Origin: Enterococcus hirae ATCC 9790
Lineage (GTDB): Bacteria; Bacillota; Bacilli; Lactobacillales; Enterococcaceae
Assembly (NCBI RefSeq): GCF_000271405.2
Contig: NC_018081.1
Coordinates: forward strand, 2,462,912 to 2,526,911
Direction: 5' to 3'
Length of the DNA: 64,000 nt
In this document: one piece after another, positions 7,259-63,079 of the stretch
Layout of the letters: each line of letters starts with the position of its first letter
Position numbering within the stretch: the stretch's first letter is position 1
The notes under the pieces: model-generated
The model's input: the letters and a program-made list of their open reading frames with translations, nothing else
The model's database searches: none
What the model was told of the DNA's origin: nothing
Program-made: the position numbers and the translations under genes

Positions 7259-7838
7259 CACTCCCACTCCTTTGACTATAAGCTTACCTGAAAAAGAAAA
7301 GAATCGCAAAATACTAAAATCAAGCTTATCAATTTGCCGATTTATACGCCTAAACAGATGAAAGTATTACAGCTATTTAGTCACTTCTTCCTTTCACAAG
7401 TAGGATCACAAAGCTATAGATTTGTTTACATTATTCAGATATCTCTCTCCCTTTACATTCATCATCGTTCACTTGAAAGTAAAGTAAAACATCCGAAAAT
7501 AGCTTTTTGCATTTTCGGATGCTTCCCTTTGTTTTTCAGAGTTGGACATCACTGTCGCAAGCTCGAATAGGATATAGAATTAGGATTTTTGGATGAGCTC
7601 ACTCTAACACCAACTTATTAAAAAGAAGTGAGAATTTTCTGTTCTCTTGTTTAAAATCTCTCAATACTTTTATTTTACACCTTGTCATTGAAATAAGTGG
7701 TTCATTTAGGAAGCAAGAAAACTCGGCTACAAAAAAACATGACTCAGCTCTACTATATTCAATTAATTCAATTAATTCATTTATTATTCATTCAATTCGA
7801 TTTAGATTCACCGTGGACCATTCCTCAAGTAGGGTCTT
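7259..7838. other. Intergenic region without a supported gene
   Basis: 580 bases between the divergent helicase and metallo-hydrolase genes. Short frames here lack ribosome binding sites and recognisable sequence. The region holds the repeat-like hairpin element at 7480-7568, and the rest is AT-rich with no clear structure. Confidence 0.6.
7480..7568 (-). repeat. Copy of a terminator-linked dispersed element
   Basis: A hairpin with arms CATCCGAAAA/TTTTCGGATG (7490-7521) is flanked by a segment read on the minus strand as CTTGCGACAGTGATGTCC. That segment matches the sequence next to the typA terminator (CTTGTTGATACAGTGATGTT). No minus-strand gene ends here, so this copy is not an obvious working terminator. 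Confidence 0.5.
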
Positions 7839-29743: not shown

Positions 29744-31495
29744 TTAACTAGAAAGTATCAGTGCTAAAAAAGCGTCCCCGTATTTGTCTAACTTGCTTTG
29801 TCCTACCCCTTTTATCTGCAATAAAGAAAGTCGATCTTTTGGACGTTGTCGACTCATTTCTTTTAAAGTCGCATCTGAAAAAACCACATAAGGCGGCACG
29901 CCTGCTTCAGAAGCTAAGTCAGTGCGTAACTCTCTTAGCGTTTCAAATAAGGTGTCAGCTTCTTCATCAGAAAGTTGTTGGACTTTTTCAGCTTCTTTTT
30001 TAAATACTTTTTGTTTCCCTTTTAACACTTCGATTCCCAGTTCCGTTACTTTCAACGTGGGGTATTCACCGTTCATTGAATACAGATAACCACCAGAAAT
30101 AAGATACTCGATCAACTGAAGAATATCTTTTTGTGCCCATTTTTTTAATAAGCCGTAAGTTGATAACGCTTGAAAACCTAGCATCTTGACTTTTTGTTCT
30201 TTCGAACCAGCTAATACCTTCATCAACAATTGTTTCCCATAATTTTCACCCATGCGTTTCAAGCAAGACAACACCATCTGTGTTTCAGTCGTTACATCGA
30301 CTAGTTCACGTTCATCTAAACAGTTACCACATCTTCCACATGGGATACTTTTTTCGCCAAAATAAGTAAGAATATATTGTTGCAGACAGGATTCGATGTA
30401 GACGTATTCCGTCATTGCTTTTAATTTTTCGTATTCTTTTTGTTTTTGTGACTCTTCTCGTTGAGATTGTTGGATAAAAAATTTTTGGACCTGTATATCT
30501 TGGGGAGCAAACAACAAGACAGCCTCACTTAAGAGCCCATCACGACCTGCTCGTCCCGCCTCCTGATAGTAAGCTTCTAAAGAACCAGGAATCTGATAGT
30601 GAATGACGAAGCGGATGTTACTCTTATTGATCCCCATGCCAAAAGCATTCGTTGCAACTAATAATTCTGTACGGTCATATAAAAAGTCTTCTTGGATTTC
30701 TGTTCGTTGGCTTTCACTCATCCCACCATGATATCTGCCAACACTGAAATCAAATTTCTTTAACAAATGATAGATTCGATCAACTTCTTTGCGGGTAGCG
30801 GCATAAATGATCCCTGATTGCTTTTTATTGATACGTAGATACTCAATTAAGTACTGCTCTTTTTTTTGATCTTTTACTACTTGTAAACGTAGATTTTCTC
30901 GTGCAAAACCCGTTTGAATATGATTATCCATTGGTATCTTTAAAAGTCTTTTAATATCTTCTGCTACTTGCTTTGTTGCAGTAGCAGTCAATGCCACAAT
31001 GACCGGTCGTTGATCAAACGTGTTTAATGTTTCTGCCATATGAAGATAGCTTGGACGAAAATCATGTCCCCATTGTGAAATACAATGCGCTTCATCAATC
31101 GCTATCAGTTGCACGTGCCAACGTTTCATTGATTGGATAAAATCTGGCATGATAAACCGTTCTGGCGCAACATATAATAATTGGATTTGTTGCTGTTCGA
31201 GTAATCGAAACCGAGAAGCAGTCTCATAACTATCCAATGAACTATTGATAAATGTCGCTGAAATGCCTAACTGATTGGCAGCATCTACTTGATCTTTCAT
31301 CAGAGAGATCAAGGGAGAAATGACCACAGTCAAGCCATCCAGCATCAACGCTGGCAATTGATAACAAATGGACTTCCCACTTCCTGTAGGCATGATCCCT
31401 AGGACGTCTTCATGACCAAGTACCTTTCGGATAATTTCTTTTTGTCCAGGGCGAAATACTTCATAACCAAAGTATTGTTTTAATATATCATTCAT
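29744..31495 (-). CDS. recQ: ATP-dependent DNA helicase RecQ
   Basis: 583 residues. Walker A TGSGKS (37-42), DEAH (134-137) inside IDEAHCISQWGHDFR, and the helicase C-terminal QEAGRAGRDG. Zinc ligands lie in the cysteine set around YIESCLQQ and IPCGRCGNC. A winged-helix region follows, and the HRDC domain is at the end (LFETLRELRTDLASEAGVPPYVVFSD). RecQ unwinds 3'-5' in recombination repair. ATG 31495 has only a modest ribosome binding site (TAGGGAT). The leader directly upstream contains the hairpin repeats. Confidence 0.95.
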   Translation of the reverse strand: MNDILKQYFGYEVFRPGQKEIIRKVLGHEDVLGIMPTGSGKSICYQLPALMLDGLTVVISPLISLMKDQVDAANQLGISATFINSSLDSYETASRFRLLEQQQIQLLYVAPERFIMPDFIQSMKRWHVQLIAIDEAHCISQWGHDFRPSYLHMAETLNTFDQRPVIVALTATATKQVAEDIKRLLKIPMDNHIQTGFARENLRLQVVKDQKKEQYLIEYLRINKKQSGIIYAATRKEVDRIYHLLKKFDFSVGRYHGGMSESQRTEIQEDFLYDRTELLVATNAFGMGINKSNIRFVIHYQIPGSLEAYYQEAGRAGRDGLLSEAVLLFAPQDIQVQKFFIQQSQREESQKQKEYEKLKAMTEYVYIESCLQQYILTYFGEKSIPCGRCGNCLDERELVDVTTETQMVLSCLKRMGENYGKQLLMKVLAGSKEQKVKMLGFQALSTYGLLKKWAQKDILQLIEYLISGGYLYSMNGEYPTLKVTELGIEVLKGKQKVFKKEAEKVQQLSDEEADTLFETLRELRTDLASEAGVPPYVVFSDATLKEMSRQRPKDRLSLLQIKGVGQSKLDKYGDAFLALILSS

Positions 31496-31520
31496 TTTAT
31501 CCCTACTTTTTAGTTGATTT

Positions 31521-31641
31521 AAGAGGTTGTGAAAGAAGCGATCAGCTCCGAGCGAATAAGAGAGGATTTTTTAAAATAGCTTCTCATATTTTAGAAAATC
31601 ATCGCTTATTGCTGAGGAGTTGCTTCTTGAACACCGTGAAT
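31521..31641. repeat. Tandem long-hairpin repeat, copy 1
   Basis: 121 bp beginning AAGAGGTTGTGAAA and ending TTGAACACCGTGAAT. The interior folds end to end: GAAGC/GCTTC, CTCC/GGAG, AATAAG/CTTATT and TAAAATA/TATTTTA around the loop GCTTCTCA. It starts 26 bases before the recQ start codon. Confidence 0.8.
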
Positions 31642-31762
31642 AAGAGGTTGTGAAAGCATCGGGAAGCTCCGATGACAATAAGAAAGAATTTTTTAAAACA
31701 GCTTCTCATGTTTTGAAAAATTCAGGCTTATTTCAAGGAGCTGATGCTTGAACACCGTGAAT
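31642..31762. repeat. Tandem long-hairpin repeat, copy 2
   Basis: 121 bp with the same ends and loop as copy 1. Stem bases have changed in matched pairs: GCATC/GATGC at the base, GCTCC/GGAGC, ATAAG/CTTAT, AATTTTT/AAAAATT and AAACA/TGTTT beside the loop GCTTCTCA. Confidence 0.8.
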
Positions 31763-31919
31763 AAGAGGTTGTGAAAAGAGCGCTTTGACCTGAGCGCTCA
31801 CCAAGTAAAAACTGCGACGAGTAATCGCAGGAGCATTAAGGATGATAATCTTGAAACAGCTCCCCATGTTTTACGAAATTCAGCTTTATGTCAAAAAACT
31901 GTCGCTCGTCCACGGTTTA
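31763..31919. repeat. Tandem long-hairpin repeat, copy 3 (divergent, expanded)
   Basis: 157 bp. It starts AAGAGGTTGTGAAA and keeps AAACA-GCTCCCCA-TGTTT at the apex and GAGCG/CGCTC at the base. The 5' arm carries an insert of about 35 bp with its own small hairpin (CTGCGACGAGTAATCGCAG). The 3' end is degraded (CGTCCACGGTTT). Confidence 0.7.
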
Positions 31920-32313
31920 GTTTTTTTATTTATAAAAAGCCTAGAGCAATCTTTTATTATTGACTCTTCTATCGCCCCTCTATAACTATAATACGTCAAT
32001 TATATTTTACTTCTCCAAGCAATCAAGTACAACATTCTTTTTGTGAAACTTTCGCTTTTCGTGAAACAAAAACCGAGGTAATTAAAGATTTTAAAAAGAC
32101 TTTTAATAAACTTTTAGCGTACTTATTGAATTTTTCTTTTGATTTTTATTAACTTCTCCACAGATAACAATTTTAGAAAAAGGAAAAACAATTCTCTCCT
32201 TTTAATTTCAAACAATTGAATACGTTCTAAAAAATTGAGAAGCAAAATTTGCCGACAGTATTTTTCTTTTCATCCACTTTAATGCTGATTTACCAGTCAT
32301 CTGAACAAAAAAT
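31920..32313. other. AT-rich intergenic region between the hairpin repeats and the typA terminator
   Basis: About 390 bases without a supported gene or clear motif. If the recQ transcript starts here its promoter was not identifiable with confidence. Confidence 0.5.
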
Positions 32314-32404
32314 AAACCGAAGATGCCCGAAAATAGTTACTCCTATTTTTGGACTTCTTCGGTTTATTTCTCAAAGCTAAACATCACTGTATCAACAAGT
32401 TGAA
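32314..32404 (-). terminator. typA terminator within a dispersed element
   Basis: Hairpin AAACCGAAGA/TCTTCGGTTT (32314-32365) with inner CCGAAAATAG/CTATTTTTGG pairing, followed on the minus strand by TTTATTTTTTG. The flank between the hairpin and the typA stop (minus strand CTTGTTGATACAGTGATGTT) recurs near 7550. Confidence 0.75.
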
Positions 32405-35748: not shown

Positions 35749-35883
35749 CTAACGTCCTTCATGTTCAGGTATGTTTAACGAGCTCATAGACGCTTCATTC
35801 TCTGTCGTGAAATTATGATTTGACAATTCATCGGATAAATTGTCCGATTCTTGACGTTCACTTAATCCCATTACATACTTCAT
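35749..35883 (-). CDS. 44-residue acidic protein coupled to the HTH gene
   Basis: MKYVMGLSERQESDNLSDEL at the N-terminus and NIPEHEGR at the end. It is hydrophilic, acidic and probably disordered. Its ATG overlaps the stop of the upstream HTH gene as ATGA, so translation would be coupled. No family is recognised. Support comes from the overlap and the hairpin downstream; the coding status remains uncertain. Confidence 0.5.
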   Translation of the reverse strand: MKYVMGLSERQESDNLSDELSNHNFTTENEASMSSLNIPEHEGR

Positions 35884-36398
35884 TGGTTTTTTCCTGAGTT
35901 TAATGTCTCATCAAATCTCATTAATATTTCCGTTATTTCTTCTGTCATGAGACTATTTCTATCTAACTGTAAAATTTCATTTTCTGACGATGTTTTATAT
36001 TGCATCTCTTCCTTCTGTTCTCTTACTTTCTTTATTTTCATCAAAATGGTTCTCGCTGATCCGTTAAATCTATTAACAAGTTTACTTAACCACAACTCTC
36101 CTGCTAAATATGCTTCGATATTTTGATTATTGCTGTCTTCCTTTTCTTTAGTTGTCTCATTCGTTAAGCTTTGCTGTTGCAGATTTTGCTCTTTTAGACT
36201 ATGTGTTACATTTCCAATGGTTCTCTTTGATACTCCAAATCGCTCAGCAAGTCCTGCTATCGGTGTATTTTTTGTTTGGTATGCTTCTATAATCCTTTCA
36301 TTTCTCTTTTTAATTGAATTATTAGGACCGCCAATTTCATTATTCTTTTCATTCTCATGACAGTCTCCTTGAAGTGTTTTAATCGTTTCTTTTCTCAT
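35880..36398 (-). CDS. Putative DNA-binding protein with two related HTH segments
   Basis: 172 residues. Two segments align with each other: RIIEAYQTKNTPIAGLAERF at about 34-53 continuing GVSKRTIGN, and NIEAYLAGELWLSKLVNRF at about 93-111 continuing NGSARTILM. Both look like homeodomain-type helix-turn-helix units, joined by a charged glutamine-rich linker. ATG 36398 follows AAAGGAG. No family name can be given. It has no metabolic neighbours, AT-rich composition, and is followed by a coupled 44-codon frame. Confidence 0.7.
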   Translation of the reverse strand: MRKETIKTLQGDCHENEKNNEIGGPNNSIKKRNERIIEAYQTKNTPIAGLAERFGVSKRTIGNVTHSLKEQNLQQQSLTNETTKEKEDSNNQNIEAYLAGELWLSKLVNRFNGSARTILMKIKKVREQKEEMQYKTSSENEILQLDRNSLMTEEITEILMRFDETLNSGKNQ

Positions 36399-60376: not shown

Positions 60377-61411
60377 GAGAGTGAGACAATCGTTCTTTCT
60401 CAAAAAGAAAATAAGTTCGATTTTGATGTTTATTGTCAAAATCGAACTTATTTTTTCTGTTATGCGCACTTTCCTCTCCATATATTTTCCTTATTTCCTT
60501 AAATTTAATGCCATCAGTGCCAAACCAATATCTATCGTTGCTCCTTGTTTCCCACGCAAATGGAAACGATGGAACGCCAAGTGAGCCTTCAGATATCCGA
60601 ATGCGGGTTCGACATCCATTTTTCGTTTCCGATAAATCGAACCAGTTTTCTCCTCTAGAAGCTTTTTTCTGCATTCTGCTTTGAAATAGCGCCAATTATT
60701 ATTTACTTGAATTTTTCGCTTTTGTTCACTTTTCACACGCGTACATTGACGACGAACTGGACAGTTCCGACAATCCTCACATTCATAGATTTTGAAATCT
60801 CGAATAAAGCCGCCTTTCTCTTTTCTGCGACTATAATTTTTGAACGGTACCGGACGATTCGCCGGGGTCTTGTTCTTCAAGATAACGCCAATTCTCCACG
60901 TTAAACGGATTCTCCTTGTCCTTCTTTTTATTTTCTTTGTAATAACTGCCATAGGTAATCAAGGGAGTTATATGTAGAACATCGTTGATATACATGTAAA
61001 TTTCTTCGCTACCATACCCTGCATCTGCCACAATGTACTCCGGCAACTCCTTATGTTGGTCTAAAAAACTATCTAAAAATGGCTTCAATATTTTGGTGTC
61101 TGTGGGATTCGGAAATAATTCATAGCTCAAAACATACTGATTTTCGGTGGTGATTTGTAAATGATAACCTGGTTTGAGCTGTCCATTTCGCATATAATCG
61201 TCTTTCATCCGCATAAAGGCGGCATCAGTAAATGTTCTACATCTAGTGGTAAAGTTGTTTGGTTGATGGTATTATTTTTAAACATAAAGCACACTCCTTT
61301 GATTTTTGTTTAAGCACTTGAATCATACAAGGTTGTGTGCTTTTTGTGTGCCTTAAAATCAAAAAAAAATGGGACAATAATCAGATTTTTTCTGACTATT
61401 GTCCCACTCTC
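60377..61411 (-). mobile_element. Decayed IS1182-family insertion sequence
   Basis: The outer ends match as inverted repeats: GAGAGTGAGACAAT at 60377 and, on the other strand, GAGAGTGGGACAAT ending at 61411. The right end has an internal palindrome (GGGACAATAATCAGA/TCTGACTATTGTCCC, 61371-61405), and the left has an 18-bp perfect hairpin (60409-60453). The element is 1035 bp, well under the 1.6-1.9 kb expected for IS1182, because of an internal deletion. No target duplication could be recognised. Confidence 0.8.
60491..61285 (-). pseudogene. IS1182-family transposase remnant
   Basis: ATG 61285 (after AAAGGAG) encodes MFKNNTINQTTLPLDVE, the normal IS1182-type N-terminus. The reading then jumps by deletion to TDAAFMRMKDDYMRNGQLKPGYHLQ in another frame. 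It runs through DAGYGSEEIYMYI and breaks again near 60870, and the last frame holds KNYSRRKEKGGFIRDFKIYECEDC, CPVRRQC and EPAFGYLKAHLAFHRFHLRG, the C-terminal DDE domain. Roughly 230 residues of the N-terminal half are missing. Not functional. Confidence 0.85.
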
Positions 61412-62894: not shown

Positions 62895-62960
62895 CATAAA
62901 TAGCATATAATAAGTATAGAATATTGATTTTAGCGTATACATAAAGAAATAAACTAGAAC

Positions 62961-63079
62961 GAGGTTGAGACAAAGGTATTTAGCGTCAAGAAATAAGCAG
63001 GAATTTCCAAAATTTGCTTTTCAACTTTTTGGTCAATCCCTGCTTATTTTTCGAAGATGTTACTTTTGTCTCAGTCTCA
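62961..63079. repeat. Palindromic repeat element / possible terminator of the permease gene
   Basis: 119 bp with nested inverted repeats: GAGGTTGAGACAAAGGTA against TTACTTTTGTCTCAGTCTC at the ends, and AAATAAGCAGG against CCCTGCTTATTT inside. It lies 19 bases past the permease stop on the minus strand. Ends and size recall the hairpin repeats at 31521-31919. Confidence 0.7.

Follow-up and report, generated by a model that had tools for sequence, protein, structure and literature searches.

The closest described relatives of the hairpin repeats treated here are the EFAR repeats. The 2007 EFAR paper of Di Nocera and co-workers reportedly describes repeats of Enterococcus faecalis with two adjacent stem-loops and a length of about 165-170 bp. 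These elements are said to integrate into stem-loops, whereby most of the target hairpin is lost, and to be variably assembled from several sequence types. REP/BIME elements and REPINs with RAYT (TnpA-REP) are, like the family described here, short dispersed extragenic hairpins that occur in clusters and near gene 3′ ends; in contrast, the present unit comprises about 116 nt with internal loops, and no match to a Y1 transposase was obtained in its host genome (E ≤ 1e-8). ERIC, NEMIS/Correia, YPAL, RUP and BOX are also hairpin-forming, MITE-like intergenic repeats, and BOX repeats are also modular. Compared by description, the present family differs from them in that its neighbors are joined head to tail, are heterotypic, and show a strand-biased conservation of the fold. 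The attC sites of integrons are structure-conserved, sequence-variable single-strand hairpins, often located directly after a stop codon. In contrast to attC sites, an unsystematic survey showed no gene cassettes here, and linked no integron integrase to the units. According to PMC2267715, Efa-1 has a length of 163 bp and is a pair of adjacent stem-loops. PMC1590033 states that Efa elements adjoin the 3′ ends of coding sequences and mentions unpublished preliminary mRNA stability data, and PMC3733652 names "EFAR elements in Enterococci" among the MITEs; passages of PMC2864571 contained nothing that could be linked to the hairpin family. EFAR and Efa-1 share with this family that they are enterococcal palindromic repeats with dozens of copies.

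The hairpin array in the recQ leader

A repeat search of the window, the whole stretch of 64,000 nt from Enterococcus hirae ATCC 9790 that was analyzed, revealed three hairpin units arranged head to tail at 31520-31918, between recQ and typA, which are both encoded on the minus strand and flank the array. The features are as follows:

29744-31495, minus strand: recQ (TIGR01389, 785.7 bits), downstream of the array
31522-31637, plus strand: unit 1, subtype A (covariance model, 114.4 bits)
31579-31586, plus strand: apical loop of unit 1, GCTTCTCA, read from the sequence
31643-31758, plus strand: unit 2, subtype B (covariance model, 108.2 bits; z −6.7)
31701-31708, plus strand: loop of unit 2, GCTTCTCA, read from the sequence
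31763-31918, plus strand: unit 3, subtype C, with an extra arm of about 40 nt and an aberrant 3′ arm
31812-31830, minus strand: intrinsic-terminator-like hairpin CTGCGATTACTCGTCGCAG followed by TTTTT, in the extra arm of unit 3 and in recQ direction
31859-31866, plus strand: loop of unit 3, GCTCCCCA, read from the sequence
32004-32032, minus strand: TTGTAC-N17-TAAAAT, the conserved promoter of recQ, upstream of the array

The first-pass annotation had proposed three tandem hairpin repeats upstream of recQ, with matched changes of stem bases between the copies. The repeats were verified by the spacing of the unit starts (121 and 121 bp, repeat family D2), by the model matches and by the located loops, and the matched changes are present in the array. 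The linkers between the units are 5 and 4 bp long. A copy of unit 1, 117 bp long and 100% identical, is present elsewhere in the same genome (C2:1335874-1335990). Unit 3 yielded only a weak match to the covariance model (31807-31916, 26.5 bits). Its first 111 bases are 82-95% identical to other long C copies and the remainder has no match; it joins a 5′ arm of type C to a 3′ arm that differs from the one in other C copies and, to our reading of the sequence, resembles a diverged B arm.

Folding was compared with dinucleotide shuffles for both strands. On the plus strand the z-scores of copies 1-3 were −6.3, −6.7 and −2.4, and that of the whole array was −9.6, while the respective values on the minus strand were −4.7, −5.9, −1.7 and −6.3. 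All three copies thus fold better than the shuffles, as the earlier statement had it, but copy 3 by itself only modestly so (z −2.4 on the plus strand). The fold is conserved on the plus strand, which is antisense to recQ.

The location in the recQ leader, which had also been proposed, was confirmed: the conserved promoter lies upstream of the array, and 26 nt separate the array from the start codon. Among the named RecQ proteins found, the closest belongs to E. villorum (89% identity). The same promoter pattern was present at 11 of 12 recQ loci of relatives, and the twelfth (L113) is interrupted by a run of N. The distance from the −10 box to the recQ start codon was 19-117 nt at the 11 loci versus 508 nt here, and no unit was detected at recQ in the 12 other Enterococcus genomes (0 model matches in 92.9 kb, which include the N run upstream of recQ in L113). 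Most simply, the array is therefore an addition in this lineage. The leaders of the relatives are too diverged for a target duplication or an exact empty site to be discerned at recQ. The terminator-like hairpin at 31812-31830 has a folding energy of −9.2 kcal/mol (z −3.2) and five U; the terminator scan of the region yielded 1 site versus a mean of 0.4 (sd 0.6) in shuffles, which is weak by itself.

Conserved fold and strand bias

The fold was characterized with an alignment of 42 units, 2 from the window and 40 from relatives. The latter originated from 83 profile hits, 63 of which were full length with a score of at least 30; 22 of these were removed as redundant or longer than 125 nt, and 1 degenerate unit was removed by hand. 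For the alignment of units from the own genome, 4 of 64 units had been left out beforehand. The consensus contains 41 pairs, and 33 of these exhibit at least one two-sided compensatory change. The fraction of cells that pair was 94.7%, compared with 74.9% in shuffles, and it dropped to at most 50.3% when the partners were shifted by 1-3 columns. The covariation score was 0.559, compared with 0.192 in shuffles; for both measures none of 500 shuffles reached the observed value. Selection for structure, as postulated in the first-pass annotation, is thus supported by the pairing and the compensatory changes. Of the two outcomes named there as refuting, a lack of copies in related genomes and a lack of statistically supported covarying pairs in a larger alignment, neither occurred, the statistical support here being that against shuffles.

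As read from the alignments, GGU-U-GU is followed by an internal loop (GA/GA), stem 1, a bulge of 4 nt and stem 2; then come another loop with GA, stem 3, stem 4, which is variable, and a tip whose loop has 8 nt and is of the GCUYYYCA type. The unit ends pair imperfectly in the 42-unit consensus. The letters vary across the units, and the structural plan stays constant. Some units, namely type C units such as that of the window (31795-31835) and the one at locus L065 (1746-1915), have stems 2 and 3 separated by an additional arm; both forms contain CCAAGTA, which suggests a three-way-junction variant. An Rfam scan of the array yielded no family at gathering score, and with a relaxed threshold the best match was the sub-threshold MIR1888 (E 0.022). 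At 20 related loci one match with E ≤ 0.01 was obtained (mir-186, below the gathering score).

The fold has a preferred strand. RNAalifold predicted −44.9 kcal/mol for the 42 units on the plus strand versus −20.5 kcal/mol on the other strand. A first count of 110 G.U versus 23 A.C pairs was set aside, because it was biased by a structure that had been chosen on the plus strand, and this structure was replaced by a strand-neutral one, which scores only Watson-Crick pairs. In the strand-neutral test the 42 units had 75 G.U versus 23 A.C pairs. For a larger set, 150 of 176 matches were aligned and reduced to 81 non-redundant units (those shorter than 95 nt or at least 85% identical were dropped), and the counts were 193 versus 62 in the alignment of the model and 201 versus 92 (29 versus 11 columns) in a structure-free alignment. 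The observed excess is 2-3 fold, and the ratio in shuffles was about 1.4 to 1. When only the pairs common to the structures of both strands were counted, the numbers were 23 versus 15. The excess of G.U over A.C on one strand indicates that one folded single strand, RNA or ssDNA, seems to be under selection, and it weakens the alternative of a symmetric DNA cruciform, which had been considered earlier.

Dispersal, gene ends and relation to EFAR

The array is not a singular structure in the E. hirae genome. It had 69 blastn matches in its own genome, and the 14-mer end AAGAGGTTGTGAAA occurred 49 times with up to one mismatch, compared with once for a reversed control. In the fetched pieces of the genome at least 88 units were found in 44 clusters, numbers that are lower bounds. 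They comprise three main subtypes, A, B and C, which correspond to copies 1, 2 and 3 of the array, respectively, and which each occur alone as well as in mixed arrays; together with a subtype C′ they combine in many orders. Instead of being one unit that diverged in place, the three copies belong to dispersed subtypes, and the compensatory changes between them are thus differences among older subfamilies and were not made in the array. The neighborhood was analyzed for 65 units with both end motifs, which form 33 arrays, 19 of them multi-unit. In 32 of 32 neighboring pairs the units had the same orientation, and in 32 of 32 they differed in subtype (5 of these pairs include an unclassified unit). 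One looser cluster among the 44 contains an inverted, diverged unit (1401362-1401445). The uniform orientation suggests oriented joining, and a loss of near-identical tandem neighbors by recombination may explain that neighbors are heterotypic. Chimeric units with one foreign arm also occur in the family.

Within the window, a further unit was found at 62960-63075 on the plus strand (62.1 bits), which has the ends GAGGTTGAGACAAA and TTTGTCTCAGTCTC, is followed by a T-rich stretch, and sits between two convergent ORFs. The hairpin after typA (32308-32373) matched the part of the unit from stem 3 to the tip (28.4 bits, E 1.2e-4), and thus some terminators may be decayed units or mere look-alikes. 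Weak model matches were obtained for both strands at 7455-7565 (24.0 and 23.9 bits).

The placement relative to genes was tallied for 116 classified loci, some of which are related and for which ORF calling was crude. The units were located between convergent genes at 42 loci, between divergent genes at 13, in tandem contexts in sense at 39 and in tandem contexts in antisense at 22. The excess of convergent and sense-tandem contexts shows that the units favor gene 3′ ends. For tandem loci the sense preference was clear in E. faecalis (11 versus 1) and weak in E. hirae (15 versus 11). Of the 28 E. hirae clusters in sense orientation relative to the upstream gene, 16 start at most 20 bp from its stop codon or overlap it. 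In the context set that includes L171 (minus strand), 19 of 22 loci were sense to the upstream gene. The context of distant families was analyzed for 24 of 29 loci (2 own, 2 same-family and 1 short locus were excluded). The loci include duplicates: L061, L062, L064 and L085 share one plasmid-type gene, L151/L174 and L152/L170 are sites common to two strains, and L080 and the G016 loci belong to one genome.

In three Enterococcus genomes, units lie in sense 54-56 bp before a presumably hemW-like gene (L195 1501-1617, L066 1501-1616, L074 1396-1633). At this site, which is also represented by L225-L227, E. hirae has one unit, genome G001 has two, and G011 has one of the other type. The tail just before these units presumably stems from a lost integrase-like gene. 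It had suggested a tyrosine recombinase as the mover, a candidate that was dropped, only a short remnant being left.

The taxonomic spread was determined with covariance model R1, counting matches with E ≤ 1e-4 and strict filters in taxon samples that overlap. Within the taxonomic family, 82 of 105 genomes gave matches; matches were also obtained in 60 of 295 genomes of the order (23 of these outside the family), in 14 of 299 genomes of the class (12 outside the family), and in 1 of 299 genomes of the phylum sample, which was the own genome. Most of the distant members inspected retain the structural plan, and the distant relative L206 has seven similar units in a row. A typed consensus matched 117 plasmid records, including 93 of Enterococcus, 13 of Lactococcus and 6 of Lactiplantibacillus. 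A plasmid search with units from other taxonomic families yielded no match. Two further groups of matches were not used, namely 41 "Listeria phage" records, which would have indicated a spread to Listeria and of which the one inspected was an UNVERIFIED wastewater assembly node, and a Klebsiella plasmid match with no annotation beneath it. A description of the order-wide reach, the strand-biased covariation or the heterotypic head-to-tail arrays was not found in the literature, with most subscription papers, including the EFAR paper, outside the scope. Thus, the order-wide reach and the strand-specific shape look new, while the kind of element is partly known from enterococci (EFAR).

The link to EFAR comes from E. 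faecalis. In most of the full-length units inspected in this species, the unit is followed by a spacer and then by a second terminator-like hairpin, about 165 bp in total, which reads as an EFAR-like plan with two adjacent stem-loops. Loci of the E. faecalis strain IDRL-9065 were set against the fetched parts of genome G016, which is assigned to the same species by flanks 99-100% identical to those of IDRL-9065. Of ten loci, 3 were filled in one strain and empty in the other, 2 were filled in both, and 5 lay outside the comparison. At 2 of the 3 filled/empty sites a simple terminator hairpin occupies the place of the element in the empty strain, with the A and T tracts kept; at the third it has a weaker repeat that is not a clear terminator. 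At all three the difference may be a gain or a loss of the element. The E. faecalis units thus resemble EFAR and Efa-1 in having two stem-loops in about 165 bp, in adjoining gene 3′ ends, and in varying between strains at three sites. An assembly from several sequence types was also found here (A, B, C and C′, with heterotypic neighbors). In E. hirae a spacer of the same kind follows 20 of 33 arrays, and a strict terminator scan detected a terminator-like hairpin after 10 of 33. After the recQ array neither was found, and therefore it is EFAR-type and not a typical EFAR element. It differs from EFAR/Efa-1 in its occurrence in another species, in consisting of three first-hairpin modules without a spacer, in its location in a 5′ leader, and in its antisense orientation. 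The assignment of the family as EFAR-type is probable and is based on the structural plan and the reported features of EFAR.

Origin of the recQ array and alternative readings

With a probability of about 75%, the array consists of three head-to-tail EFAR-type mobile hairpin modules, which entered the recQ leader after the split from the nearest sampled relatives. Among the options named in the first-pass annotation, a MITE/REP-like mobile hairpin fits best, given the dispersed copies and the copies in relatives. It is unlikely that the array has been recruited as a functional multi-hairpin cis-regulator of recQ that acts by termination and structure in the 5′ leader. It lies between the conserved promoter and recQ, the terminator-like hairpin in unit 3 faces recQ, and folding is strong on the recQ-sense strand, too (z −6.3 for the array). 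However, the 12 other Enterococcus genomes (one with a gap) have no unit at recQ, the conserved fold is on the opposite strand, and identical module types are present in 44 clusters genome-wide. The array is thus regarded as an EFAR-type repeat array, and the idea of a conserved multi-hairpin regulator of recQ was not supported.

A known mutational mechanism, quasipalindrome correction, could match the two arms by template switching inside the hairpin at replication, and the compensatory changes would then be unselected. Chimeric units with one foreign arm and the small difference between G.U and A.C in the pairs common to both strands' structures (23 versus 15) would be in accordance with this, but the mechanism is strand-symmetric, whereas G.U exceeded A.C in three strand-neutral alignments beyond the 1.4 to 1 of shuffles, and internal loops and bulges were retained and not erased; it is therefore very unlikely to account for the pattern. 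A free-standing small RNA or an RNA gene array transcribed from the plus strand, antisense to recQ, would explain why the fold is conserved on this strand and why many relatives are placed in sense shortly behind a stop codon. This is highly improbable: within the 1.2 kb that were scanned, the plus strand has a single promoter-like site, 32235-32264, which lies beyond the array, and no Rfam family reached the gathering score over the array.

For the preferred reading, EFAR-type mobile modules, a course of events can be proposed. The family would spread by insertion at, or replacement of, stem-loops. Most of these events would take place at gene 3′ ends, and the sense strand would there become a 3′-UTR hairpin, followed by the element's own second hairpin. 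Such 3′-UTR hairpins plausibly protect or end the mRNA. At recQ the insertion would have occurred the wrong way round, in antisense, downstream of the promoter but ahead of the ribosome-binding site, and without the usual spacer. The likely consequence would be side damage or a mild attenuation by the long structured leader and the terminator-like hairpin facing recQ, and the expectation is that the array would lower recQ expression.

As to the mover, no match to the Y1 transposase PF01797 or to a reverse transcriptase was obtained in the own genome (E ≤ 1e-8), and PF01797 is present in 66 of 105 genomes of the taxonomic family. Therefore, neither enzyme needs to be resident now, and a loss after movement is possible. 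The searches for Y1 and reverse transcriptase linked no transposase to the hairpin family, and a clear target duplication was not read at the recQ loci of relatives or at the filled/empty sites of E. faecalis. The strand-biased fold, the oriented joining and the hairpin targets would fit a movement as a folded single strand. It is tempting to speculate, albeit rather doubtful, that the units are a cassette-like mobile element moving as folded RNA or ssDNA, and that a structure-reading enzyme links them head to tail and exchanges them for terminator hairpins, with the fold and not the sequence as the substrate of an order-wide class. If the overall reading is right, the E. faecalis repeat class would be the visible tip of a large structure-conserved mobile hairpin family, which would span the order and some families beyond it in the class and which had no match to Rfam release 15 in the scans performed. 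By swapping terminators the family would remodel gene ends, and it would be a case of a mobile element in which strand-biased covariation could be taken as evidence of a single-stranded intermediate or of a role in mRNA 3′-UTRs.

Three further features were noted in the window. For a protein of 172 aa encoded at 35880-36398 on the minus strand, the match to a variant of the IS256-family transposases stayed below the threshold (28.6 bits; cut-off 150). At 60491-61214, also on the minus strand, two ORFs overlap in different frames and are presumably pieces of a broken transposase. At 61285-61349 on the plus strand, Rfam matched the Enterococcus sRNA Ref64 with 45.6 bits.
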